Part shown: positions 1 to 64,000 of the stretch, in pieces
How positions within the stretch are numbered: position 1 is the stretch's first letter
How the letters are laid out: the number at the start of each line of letters is the position of its first letter
Assembly (NCBI RefSeq): GCF_026130545.1
Contig: NZ_JAMOIM010000007.1
Location: 124,001-188,000 of the forward strand
Reading direction: 5' to 3'
Length of the DNA stretch: 64,000 nucleotides
Source: Lichenifustis flavocetrariae
GTDB taxonomy: Bacteria > Pseudomonadota > Alphaproteobacteria > Rhizobiales > Beijerinckiaceae
The notes under the pieces: model-generated
Database searches by the model: none
The model's input: only the letters and a program-made list of their open reading frames with translations
What the model was told of the DNA's origin: nothing
Made by a program: the position numbers and the translations under genes

Positions 1-167
1 TCCGACGGCATGAGACCGCCCGGACCAACGTCGCCGCTGGTGATCATATGCTTCAGCCGATCGAAGACCTCATCGGACAATTTGCGGCGGGTGATGGGTT
101 CGATGGCGGGAAGCACGCGGGGCCAAACCTCAGCCTGGATCGGAGATGATACCAGCATCTCTCCCAT
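1..167 (-). CDS. GntR-family transcriptional regulator, N-terminal fragment at window edge
   Basis: Only the first 55 codons are in the window; the frame runs off at base 1. The protein starts MGEMLVSSPIQAEVW and then shows RRKLSDEVFDRLKHMI followed by a G..GP.G..MPSE pattern, which is the first helix and turn of the GntR winged-helix DNA-binding domain. An alternative ATG lies three codons downstream (base 158). It is on the same strand as the complete GntR/FCD regulator that starts further right, so two regulators of one family are adjacent. Effector domain and target are unknown because the C-terminal part is missing. Confidence 0.72.
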   Translation of the reverse strand, partial: MGEMLVSSPIQAEVWPRVLPAIEPITRRKLSDEVFDRLKHMITSGDVGPGGLMPS

Positions 168-262
168 ACTCCCCCAAACGTGGTCTCGCGAAGCGATTTC
201 ATCTTGGCGACCGACCTGCCCGGTGCTTCACGCTTCAAACCGACGCTCTCCGTCGTGGCGGG

Positions 263-958
263 TCAGAGCTCGATGCCATAACGTCGCGCGGCCGCCCGGA
301 TGTGGTTTCGCATGGAGGTTTCTGCGCCCAAGCTGTCCCGTGCGGCGATGCGGTCGCACACCTCTTCATGCTCGCGCAATGTGTCGCCCAAGCGGATGCG
401 GAGCGTCATGGGCAGTCTCTGTGTCTCCACCATCATGTCACGCACTGGTCGATACATGCCGGCCAGGACGGGATTTGCCGCCAGGTCGAAGATACTATCG
501 TGGAAGACGGCATCCGCAGCCGCCATGGCCGGGATGTCATCCGCCGCGAGCGCATTGCGCATGGCCTCTGTCGCGGCTTTAAGTCGTGCGGCTCCGGGCT
601 CGTCACAACGCAGGGCGGCAAGGCGGGCCGCGTGGCTCTCGAGCCCCTCGCGCGCCTCGTAGACATCTCGTGGCGAGCAGCGTTCTGAGAACCGCCACAA
701 AGGGGCGCGGTCCGTGACCTGGTTGACGTAGACGCCGCTGCCGATACGAACTTTGACCAGTCCCATCACTTCGAGAACGGAGATCGCCTCGCGGAGTGAC
801 GGCCGACTCACACCGAGTTTTTCGGCGAGGTCGCGCTGGGAGGGCAGCTTGTCCCCGGGTCTCAGTCCGCCCCTCAGGATCAGGGCTTGCAGATGGTCGG
901 ACACAGCGCGTGAGACGAGTGGCCGCTCGCCCTGAAACGGCTCAACCACGGGATCCAT
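263..958 (-). CDS. FadR/FCD-subfamily GntR transcriptional regulator
   Basis: About 231 residues, normal for the FCD group of GntR repressors. Residues 17-82 form the winged helix (VSRAVSDHLQALILRGGLRPG, then LPSQRDLAEKLGVSRPSLRE and a wing GSGVYV). The rest is the all-helical FCD ligand domain, with the usual His/Asp/Arg metal-site pattern suggested by FHDSIFDLAANP and the REHEEVCDRI segment. I chose ATG 958 because AAGGG stands upstream of it; an upstream ATG at 991 has no ribosome site. It is divergent from the amino-acid-type ABC transporter operon, which it probably represses until a small carboxylate effector binds. Confidence 0.85.
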   Translation of the reverse strand: MDPVVEPFQGERPLVSRAVSDHLQALILRGGLRPGDKLPSQRDLAEKLGVSRPSLREAISVLEVMGLVKVRIGSGVYVNQVTDRAPLWRFSERCSPRDVYEAREGLESHAARLAALRCDEPGAARLKAATEAMRNALAADDIPAMAAADAVFHDSIFDLAANPVLAGMYRPVRDMMVETQRLPMTLRIRLGDTLREHEEVCDRIAARDSLGAETSMRNHIRAAARRYGIEL

Positions 959-1110
959 CTTGAACCCTTTTGGGGGCAAATCGAAGGTCATTTGGGGAAG
1001 TTGCTTGGATGTTGAGCGTTGTGCACGCTTTTTCCGCCTCGCATCACAGTTGCGGTCAAGATCGCACCCGTTGCGCGCTTGCGCGATTCAGATCGATCCG
1101 TCACCTTAGA

Positions 1111-1123
1111 TTGGTCAAACCGG
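1111..1123. promoter_or_regulatory. Candidate FadR-type operator in divergent GntR/ABC-transporter region
   Basis: TTGGTCAAACCGG matches the TTGGT-N3-ACC half of the consensus known for several FCD-type GntR regulators (PdhR/LldR-like TTGGTnnnACCAA). It is followed directly by a looser partner TCTGGCCAG, so 1111-1132 is an imperfect palindrome centred on ACCGGT. It lies about 40 bp before the start of the binding-protein gene, where a repressor would block transcription. Assignment to the neighbouring regulator is inferred from position. Confidence 0.45.
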
Positions 1124-1163
1124 TCTGGCCAGATGTGAGACGGCCTTCAAGCAGGAGTGCTGC

Positions 1164-1976
1164 ATGTTCCGAGTGAATGTTTCAGAATGGTTGCGGCGGC
1201 GAGTTGTCGGAGTCGCCGCGCTGTCGCTCGGCCTTGGCGTTTCGGTCACTGCCCATGCGGCGGACATGAAGGTCGGGGCCAATATCGGAAACGTGCCGTG
1301 GGAGTTCCAGGACGCCAAGGGTGAAACGGTCGGTTTTGAGGTCGACCTCGTCAAGGAGATCGGCAAGCGTCTCGGAATGGACGTGACCTTCGTCAACATT
1401 CCCTTCACGGGCCTGTTCGCCGCCGTGCAGTCCGGCCAGATCGACGCTGCGGTATCGTCCATCACCATCACCAAGAAGCGGCTCGAGAGCGTCGCCTTCG
1501 CCCAGCCCTATTATGACAGCGACCAGTCGCTGACCGTGAAAGCCGACTCGGGGATCACGAGCCTCAAGGGCATGAGCGGCAAGGTCGCAGGCGTCGACAC
1601 CGGATCGACCGGTGACATGTGGGCCACCAAGCACATGGACGAGACGAAGATCAGCGACATCCGCAAATACGAGGGGCTTTCGCCCGCGATGCTCGACCTC
1701 GCGGCCGGCCGCATCGACGGCTACATCAGCGACATCCCGGCGCTGCAATATTACGTCAAGGACAAGCCGACCTACAAAGTGGTCGAGCGCATTCCAACAG
1801 GCGAGCAATATTCGATCATGATGGCGAAGGGCAGCCCGCTGCTGCCGAAGGTCAATGACGAGATCACCAAGCTCAAGGACGAAGGCTTCATCGCCAAGCT
1901 CCACGAGAAGTGGTTCGGCGCCAAGCCGGAAGCCACGACCTCGACGGTGATGAAGGCGGAGATGCCGAAGCTCTGA
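1164..1976 (+). CDS. Amino-acid-type ABC transporter substrate-binding protein
   Basis: 270 residues, family SBP_bac_3 (periplasmic binding protein of the polar amino acid uptake family). A Sec signal peptide covers residues 1-32 (Arg-rich n-region, hydrophobic core, cleavage after AHA). The mature part shows the family blocks GFEVDLVKEIGKRLGM, FTGLFAAVQSGQIDAAVSSI and ITKKRLESVAFAQPYY. GGAG stands 8 bases before the ATG. It is the first gene of an operon with a permease and ATPase, and a stable hairpin follows its stop codon. The ligand cannot be told from sequence; neighbours suggest a nitrogenous compound. Confidence 0.93.
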   Translation: MFRVNVSEWLRRRVVGVAALSLGLGVSVTAHAADMKVGANIGNVPWEFQDAKGETVGFEVDLVKEIGKRLGMDVTFVNIPFTGLFAAVQSGQIDAAVSSITITKKRLESVAFAQPYYDSDQSLTVKADSGITSLKGMSGKVAGVDTGSTGDMWATKHMDETKISDIRKYEGLSPAMLDLAAGRIDGYISDIPALQYYVKDKPTYKVVERIPTGEQYSIMMAKGSPLLPKVNDEITKLKDEGFIAKLHEKWFGAKPEATTSTVMKAEMPKL

Positions 1977-1986
1977 GGCTTTGAGC

Positions 1987-2016
1987 CTCCCTTCTTCCAC
2001 CTGTGGGAGAAGGGAG
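1987..2016 (+). other. Intercistronic hairpin between binding-protein and permease genes
   Basis: A 14-bp inverted repeat (CTCCCTTCTTCCAC and GTGGGAGAAGGGAG, 2-base loop, one wobble) lies 10 bases after the binding-protein stop and 35 bases before the permease start. Such REP-like hairpins commonly protect the upstream message so that the periplasmic protein is made in excess over the membrane subunits. Its sequence resembles one hairpin of the larger mosaic repeats at 35713, 39622 and 61936. Confidence 0.6.
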
Positions 2017-2050
2017 CACCGGCAACGCCTCGTTCGAAACAATTGCCCTC

Positions 2051-2722
2051 ATGTCGATCTTTGACACATTCCTGAACTGGTCCGTCTTCGTCGAATCGCT
2101 GCCGGCCCTGCTGCGCGGTCTCTGGATCACGGTCGGCCTCGGGCTGACCTCCATCGTCCTCGGGCTCGCGGGCGGTCTCCTGCTCGTGATGCTGCGGCTC
2201 TACGGGGGGCTGCCGATGTCGCCGCTCGCCATCGGGTATATCGACGTGTTCCGCTCGGTGCCGGTTCTGGTGCTGCTCATCGTCATCTATTACGCCCTGC
2301 CCTTCGTCGGCATCCGGCTGTCGCCATTCTGGGCCGCCACGACGGCATTGAGCCTGGTTTCCGCCGCCTATTCGGCCGAAATCCTGCGGGCCGGCATCGA
2401 GGGCGTGCCGAAAGGGCAGTTCGAAGCGGCGCGCGCCATCGGCCTGAGCTCGATTCGCCAGATGACCGACATCGTTCTGCCCCAGGCCGTCAAGCTCGTG
2501 ATCCCGCCGCTGACGTCGAACTCCATCAATGTCATGAAGGACACGGCGCTGGCCTCCGTGGTGGCGATGCCGGACCTGCTGAAACAGGCCACCCAGGCCC
2601 AGGCGCTGGCCGCCAATCCGACACCGCTGATCGGCGCCGCCGTGATCTACGTCATCTTGCTTCTCCCGTTCGTGCGCTCGGTCGGGCTCCTCGAAAACCG
2701 CCTCAACCGGCGGGCGCGATGA
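2051..2722 (+). CDS. Amino-acid-type ABC transporter permease
   Basis: 223 residues, HisM/GlnP-type inner-membrane permease. Hydrophobic segments run from about residue 20 ([20 protein letters not shown]) to the C-terminus. The EAA cytoplasmic loop for the ATPase is visible as [17 protein letters not shown] start at ATG 2051 ([10 protein letters not shown]) rather than an in-frame start at 2003 because the latter would begin inside the intercistronic hairpin. Its stop overlaps the start of the ATPase gene by 4 bases, indicating translational coupling. Confidence 0.92.
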
Positions 2723-3456
2723 TGGCGTCGATCATCAGCCTGCGCGGCGTGAGCAAATATTTCGGCCACTTCCGGGCGCTCGACGATGTGACACTGGATG
2801 TCATGGCGGGCGAGACCCTTGTGGTGATCGGCCCCTCGGGATCGGGCAAGTCCACGCTGATCCGCTGCATCAACCGCCTGGAAACGCACGACGCCGGCGA
2901 CATCGTGGTCGACGGCTTCACGGTCGGCGACACCCGCCAACTCGCGACGATCCGCGCCGAAACCGGCATGGTATTCCAGAACTTCAACCTGTTCCCGCAC
3001 ATGAGCGTGTTGCGTAATGTGGCGCTCGGACCCGTGCGGGTGCGCGGGCTTTCCTGGGTGGAGGCAGAGGCGCGCGCCCGCAAGCTGCTGGTCCGCGTCG
3101 GTCTCGAGGCTCACGTCGCGAAATACCCGACCCAGCTCTCGGGAGGGCAGCAACAGCGCGTCGGCATCGCCCGCGCGCTCGCCATGGAACCCAAGGTCCT
3201 GCTGTTCGACGAACCCACGTCGGCGCTCGATCCCGAAATGGTCGGTGAGGTCCTGGACGTGATGCAGGGGCTCGCCCGCACCGGCGTCACCATGGTGGTG
3301 GTAACCCATGAGATGGGTTTCGCGCGCCGCGTCGCCGACCGTATCCTGTTTATGTGCGAAGGCCGGATCGTCGAACAGGGACCGCCGACCACGCTCTTCG
3401 ACACGCCGCAGGACCCGCGCTTACGGGGCTTCCTGCAGGCCGTGCTGTCACACTAG
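2719..3456 (+). CDS. Amino-acid-type ABC transporter ATP-binding protein
   Basis: 245 residues, GlnQ/HisP family. Walker A is GPSGSGKST near residue 40, the Q-loop follows at [12 protein letters not shown], the signature is [16 protein letters not shown], and Walker B plus the D-loop is [14 protein letters not shown]; the switch His is in [15 protein letters not shown] start overlaps the permease stop. It energises uptake of the ligand bound by the upstream binding protein. Confidence 0.95.
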
Positions 3457-35692: not shown

Positions 35693-35712
35693 GAGCGCTC
35701 ACACAATCTTGT

Positions 35713-35838
35713 TCCCTTCTCCCGCGAGAGCGGGAGAAGGTGGCCTTGCGAAGCAAGGTCGGATGAGGGAATCGCGATGCCGGGGATCCCCTCATCCGAC
35801 CTGCCGGGCCCCTTCTCCCGTTTACACGGGAGAAGGGG
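35713..35838. repeat. RIME-like mosaic palindromic element, copy 1
   Basis: Two outer hairpins of CCCTTCTCCCG/CGGGAGAAGG type flank inner arms GGATGAGGG and CCCTCATCCGAC, giving a four-hairpin mosaic. Related copies are at 39622-39754 and 61936-62070. It fills the gap between the Zn-dehydrogenase and FGGY kinase genes, as is usual for rhizobial intergenic mosaic elements. Confidence 0.85.
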
Positions 35839-35843
35839 AATCC

Positions 35844-39621: not shown

Positions 39622-39754
39622 CCCTTCTCCCGTGCGAACGGGAGAAGGTGGCGCGGCGAAGCCGTGACGGATGAGGGGAATTCCGGCCCTGCGTTCCCCC
39701 TCATCCGACCTCGCGTTCCGCGAGGCCACCTTCTCCCGCTCACGCGGGAGAAGG
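39622..39754. repeat. RIME-like mosaic palindromic element, copy 2
   Basis: Same architecture as the copy at 35713: outer hairpins CCCTTCTCCCG/CGGGAGAAGG on both sides and inner arms GGATGAGGGGAA and CCCCTCATCCGACC. It sits between the sugar-binding-protein gene and the ATPase gene of one operon and could stabilise the binding-protein message. Confidence 0.85.
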
Positions 39755-39765
39755 AAAGATGTGGT

Positions 39766-59064: not shown

Positions 59065-59925
59065 ATGCCATCACCCTATCCGGATCTGTGCAGTCTCCGC
59101 AACGCCATGCGGCGGATCGAGGGCTTTAGTCTGACGCGGGGAACGGCGTCGGGGGGCGACGCTGAGGTGCAAAGCCTCCAGGGGGGTCACACGACGCAGC
59201 GCGTGCCGCTCGGGGCGGCCCCGCTCGACGGCATCCTGGGCGGCGGTCTCAGGCCCGGCAGCCTGCATGAGGTCGTGGCCGAGACGGCGCGGGACGAGGC
59301 CGCGGCCTCCGGCTTTGCGGTTGCGCTGGCAGGCCTCGTGGCGCGCGGCCGGACCCTGGTCTGGATTCTCGACGACAGGACCGCCTGGGAAATCGGTCTT
59401 CCCTACCGGCCCGGCCTCGCGGCGCACGGGATCGAGGCCGACAAGCTGATCCTGGTCAAGACCAAGGACACGGCCACGACGCTCTGGGCCACCGAGGAGG
59501 CATTGCGGGCCGGCGCTCCCGTGGTCCTGACGGAATTGTGGCGTGCCCGGTCCTACGATCTCGCCGTGTCGCGTCGGCTTCTCCTCGCGGCCCGGCGCCG
59601 GGGCGCCACGAATCTGGTGGTGCATGTCGGGCTGCGCCAGCACGAGGTGTCGAGCGGCGCGGAGACGCGCTTTGCGGTCGCGGCCGCGCCGAGCGAGCGC
59701 CTCCCTTCGGCCGGTGCCGCAACGCCCATTCCCGGACCCGCGGGTTTCGCGGTGCGGCTCGTGAAATGGCGCGGCGACCCGGACAGCCGCTTCGGCTTCG
59801 ACCGCGACCAGATCCATCACCTGTCCTGGGACCGCTCGGGCCGTCGTTTCAGCCGGCCCAATGACCTCTCGCGCCTGAGTGGTCGTCACCGCACCGAGGC
59901 GTCGCCGCGCGGCGACGCGGCCTGA
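59065..59925 (+). CDS. imuA: ImuA, SOS mutasome RecA-like protein
   Basis: 286 residues from ATG 59065. RecA-fold remnant: PLGAAPLDGILGGGLRPGS near 50-70, VARGRTLVWILDDR and GLAAHGIEADKLILV, with the characteristic C-terminal VRLVKWRGDPDSRFGFD. The Walker A is degenerate. With ImuB and DnaE2 it performs translesion synthesis and damage-induced mutagenesis. Start chosen downstream of the LexA box. Confidence 0.9.
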   Translation: MPSPYPDLCSLRNAMRRIEGFSLTRGTASGGDAEVQSLQGGHTTQRVPLGAAPLDGILGGGLRPGSLHEVVAETARDEAAASGFAVALAGLVARGRTLVWILDDRTAWEIGLPYRPGLAAHGIEADKLILVKTKDTATTLWATEEALRAGAPVVLTELWRARSYDLAVSRRLLLAARRRGATNLVVHVGLRQHEVSSGAETRFAVAAAPSERLPSAGAATPIPGPAGFAVRLVKWRGDPDSRFGFDRDQIHHLSWDRSGRRFSRPNDLSRLSGRHRTEASPRGDAA

Positions 59926-59930
59926 AGGCC

Positions 59931-61451
59931 ATGGCCCGCCTGCTCAGCCTTTGGCTGCCGACGCTGCCGACCGATCGTCTCCGACGGCACGGCGCGCCGG
60001 AGGGACCGCTCGCGACGATCGAGCCCCTCAAGGGCGCGCAACGCATCGCCGCGGTCGATACGGCCGCCGCCGCGGCCGCGATCCGGCCCGGCATGACGCT
60101 CGCCGATGCCCGCGCGATCTGCCCGGCGCTCGCAACGGTGACGGCTGACCCGGACCAGGAGGCGAAGGCCTTGCGGGCCATCGGCGATTGGGGGCTCCGC
60201 TTCACGCCCATCACGGCGCTCGACCCACCCGACGGCGTGCTGCTCGACATCACGGGCGTGACGCATCTCTTCGGCGGCGAAGCGGCGCTCCTCGACACGC
60301 TGACCGCGGATCTGGCGGCACGCGGTTTCGCCGGGCGGGCCGCGATCGGTGACACGATCGAAGCCGCCTGGGCGCTCGCGCGCTTCGGCACCATCCGGAT
60401 CGCCCCGCCGGGTCGGGCCGCCATAACGGCGCTGAGCCGCAGCCTGCCTTTGGCTGCCCTCAGGCTGCCCTCCCCGGTTCTGCAGGCCCTGGCGCAAGCG
60501 GGACTGCGGGAGATCGGCGACCTCCTGACCCGTCCCCGCGCGCCGCTCGCGGCCCGCTTCGGGGCGACGCTCCTCGAGCGGCTCGACGGGCTCATCGGCC
60601 TGCACAAGAGCCCGCTCACACCCTCGACCCCGGTGCCTCTGTTCCTGGCCGAGCGCCGCTTCGCTCATCCGATCGCCACGGTGGAGGCCATCGAGGCTTC
60701 GCTTCTGTCGCTCGCGCGTCATCTCGCGGCGCAACTCGAACGGCAGGCGCAGGGCGCCCGGCGGGTCGAGGCGGTGTTCTTCCGGGTGGACGGGGTGGTG
60801 AAGCGGCTCGCCTTGGGAACGAGCCGTCCGTTGCGCGACCCCGTCGCCCTGGTGCGGCTCTTTCATGAGAAGCTCGAAAGTCTCGGCGAGGAGGGGCTCG
60901 ACACCGGCTACGGCTTCGACGTGATCCGGCTCGGAGCCAGCGTTGCCGAACCTCTGACGAGCGCGCAGGCCGAACTTGCGGCGGCGGCCGAGCAGGCCGC
61001 GGAAGCCGACTTGGCGCTGCTGATCGATCGCCTGGGCGCGCGGCTCGGCGCAACCCGTGTGGTGCGTCTGCGCAACGCCGACCATCACCGGCCGGAAGAG
61101 GCCGCGATCGCCTGGCCGGCGCATCGCCTCAGCACAGGCCCGTCCATGCCCGACGAGCCCGGTCGGCTGCGTCCCTTGAAAATGTTCGACCGGCCCGAGC
61201 CGATCGATGCCACGGCCGGCGTGCCGGACGGACCACCTCTCTATTTCCGCTGGCGCCGCACCCTGCATCTGATCGCCGCCGTCGAAGGGCCGGAACGCAT
61301 TGCGGCCCCCTGGTGGACGACGGCCGCCCCGACGCGTGATTATTTCCAGGCCGAAGATGTCGCCGGGCACCGCTTCTGGCTGTTCCGGGAGGGTTTGTAC
61401 GGCATCGAAGCCGCCCGCCCGCGCTGGTTTCTGCATGGGCTGTTCGGGTGA
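59931..61451 (+). CDS. imuB: ImuB, Y-family polymerase-like mutasome protein
   Basis: 506 residues. Begins MARLLSLWLPTLPTDRLRR as ImuB proteins do. The Y-family palm is recognisable but the acidic catalytic triad is missing (LDITGVTHLFGGE where active polymerases have SIDE), as expected; ImuB acts as a hub that links DnaE2 to the beta clamp rather than as a polymerase. C-terminal FRWRRTLHLIAAVEGPERIA and YFQAEDVAGHRFWLFREG are typical. Starts 5 bases after imuA. Confidence 0.93.
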   Translation: MARLLSLWLPTLPTDRLRRHGAPEGPLATIEPLKGAQRIAAVDTAAAAAAIRPGMTLADARAICPALATVTADPDQEAKALRAIGDWGLRFTPITALDPPDGVLLDITGVTHLFGGEAALLDTLTADLAARGFAGRAAIGDTIEAAWALARFGTIRIAPPGRAAITALSRSLPLAALRLPSPVLQALAQAGLREIGDLLTRPRAPLAARFGATLLERLDGLIGLHKSPLTPSTPVPLFLAERRFAHPIATVEAIEASLLSLARHLAAQLERQAQGARRVEAVFFRVDGVVKRLALGTSRPLRDPVALVRLFHEKLESLGEEGLDTGYGFDVIRLGASVAEPLTSAQAELAAAAEQAAEADLALLIDRLGARLGATRVVRLRNADHHRPEEAAIAWPAHRLSTGPSMPDEPGRLRPLKMFDRPEPIDATAGVPDGPPLYFRWRRTLHLIAAVEGPERIAAPWWTTAAPTRDYFQAEDVAGHRFWLFREGLYGIEAARPRWFLHGLFG

Positions 61452-61460
61452 ACGTGGCCC

Positions 61461-64000
61461 ATGTTCGTGGAATTCGGCACGACCACCAATTTCTCGTTCC
61501 TGCGCGGGGCTTCGCATCCGGAGGAACTCGTCGCCATGGCGAGCGGCTTCGCGTTGCCGGCCCTGGGCATCGCGGACCGCAATTCGCTGGCCGGTGTGGT
61601 GCGGGCCTACATCCAGGCCCGCAAGCCCATGGACCATCCGGTGCGGCTCGTGGCCGGTGCCCGCCTCGTCTTCGCCGACGGCACGCCCGACATCCTGGCC
61701 TACCCGGTCGATCGCGATGCCTATGGCCGCCTGACGCGGCTGCTGACGATCGGCAATCGCCGGGCCGAAAAGGGGGCCTGCGTGCTCACCCTCGCCGATC
61801 TCCTCGATTGGATCGAAGGACTGCAGTTGATCGTGATGGACCGGTCGAGCGCCACGGACGAGGAGACGGTGCTTCACCCGGCTCCGCCCGTGGGAGAGGA
61901 GGGAAACAGGGATCGAACGGGGTCGCCCAAAGACTCCCCTTCTCCCGCAAACGGGAGAAAGTGGCCCTTGCGTCAGCAAGGGTCGGATGAGGGGAAACTC
62001 AGCGACCCGGATCCCCCTCATCCGATCCGGCTTTGCCGGGCCACCTTCTCCCGTGGAACGGGAGAAGGGAAGCACTGGGCCTCCCTTCACTTCACCCCGC
62101 CGCTCCCCCCCGCCAACGACAACCCTCCCCCACAGCCCGATCAGGCCTCCCTCCTGCGCCGCCTCGCCTGTGCCGCGCCGGGCCGTGTCTGGATCGCGGC
62201 CACCATGACCTATGGGCCTGCCATGCGGGCTGGGCTCGCGGCGCGGCGGGCGCTGGCCCGTGCCACAGGCCTCCCGCTGCTCGCCACGAACGACGTGCTG
62301 ATGCACGCGCCCGAACGGCGCCAACTCGCCGATGTCCTGGTCTGTATCCGGACGGGCATTCCGATCGATCGGGCCGGGCGGCGGCTCGAAGCCAATGCCG
62401 AGCGGCATCTGAAGTCCGGCCCGGAGATGGCGCGCCTGTTCACCGAAGCGCCGGAAGCCGTGCCTGAAACCTTGCGGTTCCTCGAAGGCATCCGGTTTTC
62501 GCTCGATGAACTCAAGTACAATTATCCCGACGAGCTGCGGGCCGGCTACGACACCGAACAGGAGGCCCTCCGGGCCTTTGCCGAAGCCGGTACGCGCTGG
62601 CGCTACCCCACAGGTGTCCCGGACGAGGTGCAACGGCAGTTGAACCACGAGCTCGCACTCGTCGCCGAGCTCGACTATGCGGCCTATTTCCTGACCGTCT
62701 ACGATGTCGTCCAGTTCGCCCGTCGCGAAGGCATTCTGTGCCAGGGACGCGGCTCGGCCGCGAATTCGACGCTCTGCTACTGCCTCGGCATCACGGAAAT
62801 CGACCCCGTGCATCACGCCATGCTGTTCGAGCGCTTCATCTCGAAGAACCGCAACGAGCCGCCCGATATCGACGTCGATTTCGAGCACGAGCGGCGTGAA
62901 GCCGTGATGCAATATATCTACGAACATTACGGCCGCGCCCATGCCGGGCTGGTCGCCACCGTGATCACTTACCGGACGCGCTCCGCCCTGCGCGATGTCG
63001 GCAAGGCTTTCGGCCTGTCCGACGACACGGTGTCGGCGCTCAGCGGCACCGTCTGGGGCTATTGGTCGAGCGGCATCGATCCCAAGGAAGCGCGGCGCAT
63101 CGGGCTCGACCCGGACGAGCATCGTCTCAAGCTGATGCTGACGCTGGCCGATGAGCTCGCCGGCTTCCCGCGCCATCTGTCCCAACATACGGGCGGCTTC
63201 GTGATCACGCGCACGCGGCTCGACGAGGTGGTGCCGATCAGCAATGCCGCCATGGACGACCGCACCGTCGTCGAATGGGACAAGGACGACCTCGACGCGC
63301 TCGGCATGATCAAGATCGACGTGTTGGCGCTCGGGATGCTGACTTGCCTCAAGAAGGGCTTCGACCTCCTGGAACAGCATTACGGCCAGACGCTGACCCT
63401 CGACGACGTGCTGAAACGGGATCAGGTCGAATCCTGTGTCTACGACATGATCTGCCGGGCCGACACGATCGGCGTGTTCCAGATCGAGAGCCGGGCTCAG
63501 ATGACGATGCTGCCGCGCCTCAAGCCGCGGGAATTCTACGATCTCGTGATCGAGGTCGCCATCGTGCGCCCGGGGCCGATCCAGGGTGACATGGTGCATC
63601 CCTACCTGCGCCGCCGGCAGGGACTGGAGCCTGTCATCTACCCTTCGGATGAATTGCGCGAGGTGCTGCAACGGACGCTGGGCGTGCCGCTGTTCCAGGA
63701 ACACGCCATGAAGATCGCCATCGTGGCGGCCGGTTTCACGCCTGACGAGGCGGATCAGCTCCGTCGCGCCATGGCGACCTTCAAGAAGGTCGGAACCATC
63801 GGCACGTTCCGGGATAAGATGGTCAACGGCATGGTGGCGAAAGGCTATCCGGCCGATTTCGCGGAACGCTGCTTCAAGCAGATCGAAGGCTTCGGCACCT
63901 ATGGCTTTCCCGAGAGCCATGCGGCGTCCTTCGCGCTGCTCGTCTATACCTCGGCCTGGCTCAAGTGCCGCTACCCGGACGTCTTCGCCTGCGCGCTGCT
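61461..64000 (+). CDS. dnaE2: Error-prone DNA polymerase DnaE2, truncated by window end
   Basis: 846 codons are present and the frame is open to base 64000. PHP domain at the start ([20 protein letters not shown]; here ASHPEELV), then [20 protein letters not shown], the palm with [19 protein letters not shown] and [13 protein letters not shown] (catalytic Asp residues), and [15 protein letters not shown]. Residues about 128-225 are an unusually long linker; residues 159-203 of it are the translation of a mosaic palindromic repeat. It starts 9 bases after imuB and does translesion synthesis with ImuA/ImuB. Confidence 0.93.
61936..62070. repeat. RIME-like mosaic palindromic element, copy 3, inside the dnaE2 coding region
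   Basis: Outer hairpins CCCTTCTCCCG/CGGGAGAA and CCACCTTCTCCCG/CGGGAGAAGG with inner arms GGATGAGGGGAA and CCCCTCATCCGATC, the same mosaic as at 35713 and 39622. At 135 bases it is an exact multiple of three and has no stop in the dnaE2 frame. Confidence 0.9.

Follow-up and report, generated by a model that had tools for sequence, protein, structure and literature searches.

How does a palindromic repeat that normally lies between genes come to sit, in frame, inside the gene of an error-prone DNA polymerase? The locus raising this question lies at the end of the window analysed here, a 64,000-nucleotide stretch of the Lichenifustis flavocetrariae genome located in contig C158 of a 7.5-Mb draft assembly with 180 contigs. 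The polymerase gene, dnaE2, extends 1213 bases beyond the window end (64000). In window numbering, the relevant features are as follows.

59931-61451, + strand: imuB-like gene directly upstream of dnaE2, Y-family polymerase-like, with Pfam IMS and IMS_C
61461-65213, + strand: dnaE2 (error-prone DNA polymerase III alpha-type), an open frame of 1250 codons
61887-62126, + strand: codons of low-confidence loop 1 (residues 143-222), comprising the repeat and Pro-rich flanks
61938-62068 (~131 bp), + strand: palindromic mosaic repeat, site 1, in frame in dnaE2 at residues about 160-203
61938-61961, + strand: left outer hairpin of the site-1 repeat; both outer hairpins have arms CCTTCTCCCG/CGGGAGAAGG, with the pattern CCTTCTCCCG/CGGGAGAA(A/G)G
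61984-61993 and 62015-62024, + strand: inner inverted arms of the site-1 repeat, GGATGAGG ... CCTCATCC
62044-62068, + strand: right outer hairpin of the site-1 repeat
64121-64254 (L030:5121-5254), past the window edge: second in-frame repeat copy, site 2, in dnaE2 at residues about 887-932
35712-35842, strand unassigned: intergenic repeat copy, genome match
39622-39758, strand unassigned: intergenic repeat copy, genome match

The host gene was assigned to DnaE2 by its C-family polymerase domains (Pfam DNA_pol3_alpha, finger, HHH_6 and OB-fold, with TIGR00594 above cut-off), its catalytic-type aspartates and the adjoining imuB-like gene, with which it forms what we take to be an imuB-dnaE2 cassette. 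More specifically, D469, D471 and D620 (in PDIDVDF and KIDVLALG), the presumed catalytic-type residues of DnaE, are invariant across 60 aligned sequences including the source DnaE2. An antisense open frame of 1344 codons (59886-63920, - strand) overlaps both imuB and dnaE2 and is most likely a by-product of high G+C.

The original prediction, which had described a palindromic repeat with two intergenic copies and an in-frame insert of about 45 residues in an expanded loop, was borne out on all three points: the outer hairpins and inner arms are present, both intergenic copies were recovered, and the dnaE2 frame stays open through the repeat. With at most one mismatch allowed, the window contains 24 matches to the 10-base outer arm, against a mean of 6.9 in 100 shuffles (sd 2.4, largest 13). 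The 10-base inner arm is not above chance at the same tolerance (12 against 9.7 expected; 26 of 100 shuffles reach 12), and its six exact matches in the window all fall within the three repeat copies. The site-2 copy was located through a BLAST match at C158:188121-188236, extended by eye to about 188254. It matches site 1 on the opposite strand and less closely (78%, 78 bits) than the best intergenic copy matches it (80%, 109 bits), so the two dnaE2 copies look like separate insertions.

Across the whole genome, BLAST with the repeat returned 73 matches at E<=0.001, many places being matched on both strands, and the repeat half-pattern gave 62 exact matches, against none for the reversed control. 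From both searches, 47 repeat places were listed by hand, with some nearby half repeats counted separately. A place was scored as in frame when the same codon-usage frame was best on both flanks and remained open across the repeat. The same frame was best on both sides at 11 of the 47 places, of which seven had an in-frame stop and four were open. Two candidates, L020 and L021, were dropped on account of a stop codon beside the repeat, which makes both intergenic. This count of copies in reading frames, proposed with the original prediction, left 2 of 47 places in frame inside a gene, both of them in dnaE2, while the other 45 are not in frame in a gene. All 25 of the copies of 120-150 bases tested are stop-free in one to four of the six frames, which means that a copy can readily land in an open frame.

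In a count across genomes that gave 61 for the source, the half-pattern is also frequent in G001 (65), Methylocapsa S129 (79), Mesorhizobium sp. NFR06 (56), S. meliloti 4H41 (29) and G004 (28), occurs 13 times in Rhizobium lusitanum P1-7, and is rare or absent in G002 (1) and G003 (0); none was found in the Methylocella tundrae, Methylobacterium, Xanthobacter, Caulobacter and Sphingomonas records examined. G001 thus holds about as many copies as the source genome, none of them in dnaE2. One copy (G001:C1:4752674-4752806) lies just upstream of the start of the G001 dnaE2, which has no inserts. A search for a transposase linked to the repeat found none. The single match to PF01797 (tyrosine transposase, Y1_Tnp) in the source genome is an open frame of 142 aa whose locus (3354 bases) contains none of four exact 8-base repeat motifs, and the repeat was not classed as a RAYT-mobilised REP. 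PF01797 had no match in G180, G115 or the Bosea MAG; matches are present in G031, G139, G107 and G176.

We compared the source DnaE2 with those of its genus, which comprises six genomes. Both repeat copies are absent from dnaE2 of the four genus-mates G001-G004. Between flanking anchors, linker 1 measures 128 aa in the source and 41 aa in G001, G002 and G004, and linker 2 measures 82 aa in the source compared with 43-46 aa in G001-G004. In G003, linker 1 reaches 109 aa of unrelated sequence without the repeat, indicating that loop 1 is tolerant of length in any case. The orthologue comparison suggested earlier therefore cuts both ways, with the absence of the insert from G001-G004 in its favour and the long unrelated linker of G003 against it. 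The DnaE2 of G005 (L125) was placed in another DnaE2 clade of the tree and is not a fair orthologue for this comparison; its position implies either a genus with two DnaE2 lineages or a transfer. Branch lengths are similar for the source (0.225), G003 (0.209) and G001 (0.206).

To locate the inserts on the protein, an AlphaFold2 model of source DnaE2 residues 1-1190 was built from 60 aligned sequences (mean pLDDT 82.9, pTM 0.83); the PDB structures that it matches best are bacterial DNA polymerase III alpha subunits. Stretches with pLDDT <50 comprise residues 143-222, 704-709, 774-776, 893-931, 1024-1030 and 1037-1041. The only ones longer than seven residues, 143-222 and 893-931, correspond to the two inserts and their flanks, both of which are thus predicted to be disordered. 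When the G002 protein, which has no insert, was used as query, loop 1 aligned with about residues 129-165 of E. coli DnaE, which we take to lie within the PHP domain, and loop 2 with about residues 818-830. The original prediction had placed the site-1 insert between the PHP region and the rest of the polymerase; both the E. coli alignment and the model correct this position to within the PHP domain. Site 2 most likely lies in a surface loop at the border of the helix-hairpin-helix region or immediately ahead of it.

The question then becomes whether this gene is exceptional. A search with the G002 DnaE2 gave a match in 196 of 199 family genomes among the matches listed, some of them no stronger than a DnaE1 would be expected to give. 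From these, 40 family loci were taken, most for a broken loop alignment or a long frame and about a dozen as unbroken comparisons; adding the six genes of the genus and a further 78 named loci brought the total to 124 dnaE2 genes. As open frames alone were collected, insertions that break the frame could have escaped notice. A search for hairpins with exact stems of at least 11 found 6, compared with 5.7 expected from codon-shuffled genes, and was replaced by minimum-free-energy windows and shuffled linkers. Among 13465 windows of 120 bases, 30 fell below z -4, in 14 genes, and merged into 19 hairpin peaks. Fifteen of the 19 lie in loops 1-3 (reference positions 131-145, 808-819 and 969-977), which make up about 10% of dnaE2 codons; of the other four, three are in L055 (166, 559 and 855) and one precedes the start codon of L147. 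In L055, which belongs to the Rhizobium sp. Q54 MAG, palindrome-like inserts lie near 559 and 855, close to insert positions in the order's other families.

Long linkers were further scored against dinucleotide shuffles, and 20 of 57 gave z<-3; the remaining 37, the source's own site 2 among them, gave z -3 or above. Genes were called insert-bearing partly by eye, 8 at loop 1, 10 at loop 2 and 3 at loop 3. These 21 gene-loop cases include four with z -3 or above or off the z list, for example site 2 of the source, L157 and L167 (loop 1), and exclude L155 and L085 despite z<-3, where no repeat was seen or the call was unsure (the L155 linker has z -3.8 and no recognisable repeat). Loop 1 is also long without a strong palindrome in G003 (109 aa), G023 (102) and G062 (101), so not all of its length need come from repeats. 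On a 952-column tree, Fitch parsimony set a minimum of 6 changes for loop 1, 7 for loop 2 and 3 for loop 3, each a gain or a loss, which makes a total of at least 16, mostly in Hyphomicrobiales. Since the loops were defined after viewing the linkers, calls were made by eye and genes with broken alignments were preferred, these counts show recurrence and not frequency. L095, which groups with sphingomonad DnaE2, lies outside Hyphomicrobiales. The idea that such inserts are unique to the source strain was dropped: its own insertion is absent in genus-mates, and similar insertions occur in other lineages.

Several of these inserts are themselves repeats of the genomes that carry them. Counted as matches and not as places, inserts matched their own genome 87 times in G180 and 81 times in the Bosea MAG, and the G115 insert had 37 matches in G115, 66 in G150 and 57 in G176. 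The in-frame test was applied to the matches listed, in which some places appear twice. Among those matches, 2 of 22 scored in G180 were in frame, both in dnaE2 (8 of 30 were dropped at contig edges); in the g17 set, 3 of 30 were in frame, one in dnaE2, one in LigD and one rejected; in the Bosea MAG, 2 of 30, in dnaE2 and CobN. The source genome gave 2 of 29 among the matches listed in the same test, both in dnaE2. The rejected g17 case, L225, has flanks that are both non-coding by score, and its sole Pfam match is below cut-off. One repeat family occupies loops 1 and 3 in G180, and two families adjoin at loop 2 in the Bosea MAG.

Three further observations concern individual repeats. The loop-1 and loop-3 copies of L148 (G180) are 95% alike over 170 bases, compared with 85% for the next listed match, which suggests copying within the gene. 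In L244 of G176 (frame 808-3051, +), LigD contains an in-frame palindromic repeat at residues about 205-250, where a linker joins the 3'-phosphoesterase domain to the ligase domain. L247 of the Bosea MAG (frame 3-3062, -) is a CobN/Mg-chelatase gene with an in-frame copy of a repeat of that genome's dnaE2.

At the level of the order, 123 of 150 evenly drawn genomes had a DnaE2 match at E<=1e-100, and 20 loci with a broken or shortened alignment, a subset of such loci, were taken. Nine of the 20 genes contain windows that fall below z -4; these map to reference positions 136-142, 807, 851-855 and 1017, the last in a gene truncated at the end of its contig or frame. The other 11 have no such window; nine of them carry inserts of at least 29 aa at about 563, 807 or 851, some of which resemble translated repeats by eye. 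The loops near 563 and 851-855 were added to the list on this basis, with weaker support at 563.

DnaE1, the paralogue, served as a control. In 19 genomes, 17 DnaE1 proteins gave one unbroken match over the 1022-position model, and those of G192 and G153 were split. None of 1774 windows from 18 DnaE1 genes fell below z -4 (two below -3), compared with 15 of 2043 windows, in 9 of 18 genes, for DnaE2 of the same genomes, including L147 with a window only before its start codon; as the genomes were picked knowing their DnaE2, this shows that DnaE1 is spared and not how often DnaE2 is hit. A second DnaE-type homologue, in several separate pieces, lies at G129:C52:11237-14140. Strong hairpins also occur in the dnaE2 flanks, with 19 of 4200 windows below z -4 in the 1300 bases upstream, on the imuB side (105 loci; 12 of the 19 have their centres no more than about 130 bases from the dnaE2 start), and 4 of 2280 in the 700 bases downstream (114 loci). 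They are therefore not confined to dnaE2; the difference that counts is from DnaE1 and from the remainder of dnaE2.

These results are very probably explained by the tolerated in-frame insertion of non-autonomous RIME/REP-like repeats into surface loops of DnaE2, where they would be translated as disordered peptide. A normally intergenic palindromic repeat would have inserted twice, in frame, into the source dnaE2, each insert most likely adding about 45 residues of disordered peptide to a surface loop. Because these loops are not part of the folded core, the polymerase would tolerate the additions, which would be nearly neutral. Selection would retain only insertions that keep the frame, contain no stop and fall in loops outside the fold. 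Elsewhere, mostly in Hyphomicrobiales, different repeats recur in the same few loops. As an insert ages, its hairpin would decay and leave a longer, ordinary-looking linker.

Alternatively, the inserts could have been selected, with repeat-derived loops altering how the polymerase behaves, perhaps where it touches ImuB or the clamp, and so tuning mutagenesis. Such a role has been speculated for REP-tagged repair proteins in the sections of Di Nocera et al. 2013 (PMC3733652) considered here, which find it hard to call intragenic REP insertions fortuitous. Recurrence in one mutagenesis polymerase, the LigD linker of G176 and the lack of strong hairpins in the 18 DnaE1 genes fit this idea. We nevertheless regard it as unlikely: the inserts differ in family, sequence and loop and the CobN of the Bosea MAG was hit too, a variety that fits tolerance better than a common function. 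Furthermore, the loop-2 insert common to the closely related pair G150 and G176 has 4 non-synonymous to 3 synonymous changes, compared with 16 to 77 in the rest of the gene (Fisher p 0.03), so the host gene is constrained and the insert, on these small numbers, looks relaxed. Similarly doubtful is the proposal that DnaE2 of Hyphomicrobiales is a preferred sink for repeats, in which disordered loops at fixed positions would be useful, e.g. by loosening PHP or HhH/OB contacts and tuning error-prone synthesis; if it were true, selfish repeats would time and again supply a mutagenesis enzyme with new linkers.

The original prediction also allowed for action at the RNA level, and a hairpin in the dnaE2 message might indeed slow ribosomes or change mRNA decay and thereby limit DnaE2 output. 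The part of this that stands is the fold itself, which is very stable (61925-62080, + strand: -101.8 kcal/mol, z -10.4 against 200 shuffles); nothing further was found in its favour. Repeats of other families occur at other loops, the site-2 linker folds weakly (z -2.3), and Rfam returned 12 matches, all to miRNA-precursor models (best E 1.8e-5), with none of the 12 at gathering score, making such a device quite improbable. Two inserts in one gene could also mark a dnaE2 that is dying, which is very unlikely given 1250 open codons, invariant catalytic-type aspartates, a branch length like those of G003 and G001 and a confidently predicted fold. Least credible of all is an assembly error joining a repeat from elsewhere into dnaE2. 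A 180-contig draft with many repeat copies invites such errors, but there are two separate copies, both frame-keeping and both flanked by dnaE2 on one contig, and the same kind of insert is found in other genomes, including those of G115 (4 contigs) and G176 (7 contigs).

With tolerated insertion as the preferred explanation, DnaE2 offers a replicated natural experiment, in which independent in-frame insertions at the same few loops can be compared with insert-free relatives and with the paralogue DnaE1. Chance versus selection of repeat insertions in repair proteins thereby becomes directly testable. The inserts would also show how intergenic repeats can seed disordered protein linkers, leaving a record of selfish repeats turning into protein.

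Among known systems, RIMEs (Osteras et al. 1995) are reportedly Rhizobium-specific intergenic mosaic elements of palindromic structure. The repeat described here is likewise mosaic, with at least two palindromes, and intergenic, the two dnaE2 copies being the exceptions; its half-pattern is common in the S. meliloti, Mesorhizobium and Rhizobium lusitanum records. It is RIME-like in arrangement and could be related in sequence to RIME1 or RIME2. RIMEs reportedly lie between genes, whereas this repeat also lies within dnaE2.

The RPEs of Rickettsia, with which the original prediction compared the element, are comparable in kind. According to the portion of the literature consulted (Ogata et al. 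2000, via PMC10969869), they are palindromes of about 150 bp lying in frame in genes, and the repeat here is similarly multi-copy, mostly intergenic, in frame and stop-free in a conserved gene, and absent from the genus-mate orthologues. The likeness is one of function and arrangement. RPEs hit many genes, with 44 insertions in R. conorii in the same excerpts (PMC10969869), whereas here dnaE2 alone is hit, twice, among 47 places.

That such an insertion would be notable for a rhizobial RIME-like element, as the same prediction held, is tempered by the extracts of Di Nocera et al. 2013 (PMC3733652) available for comparison, which report REPs within genes of several species, many for replication or repair and including DnaE2, and speculate on mutator effects. 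On that account, the kind is already known. The GTAG/CGTC REPs of those extracts (PMC3733652) resemble the present repeats in being palindromic, mostly intergenic, found inside genes and encoding peptide; two inserts in one gene (uvrA, uvrB) are described there as well, and a DNA ligase is named. Some of the DnaE2 inserts here may themselves be GTAG or CGTC REPs. The REPs are units of 20-40 bp; over half of the inserts found within genes consist of dimers or groups that contribute 20-30 aa, and in two species clusters specify 43-82 aa (PMC3733652, same extracts), whereas we find a ~131-bp mosaic repeat and several repeat families. In the extracts, genes of the same category are hit at different sites except recB of two Xanthomonas (PMC3733652); here, the same few DnaE2 loops are hit in several lineages. 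No description of recurrent same-loop DnaE2 insertions was found in the literature searched, most subscription journals lying outside its reach. As far as that literature goes, three things are new compared with these systems: DnaE2 carries a mosaic RIME-like repeat, the same few loops are used again and again by independent lineages, and DnaE1 stands in contrast.
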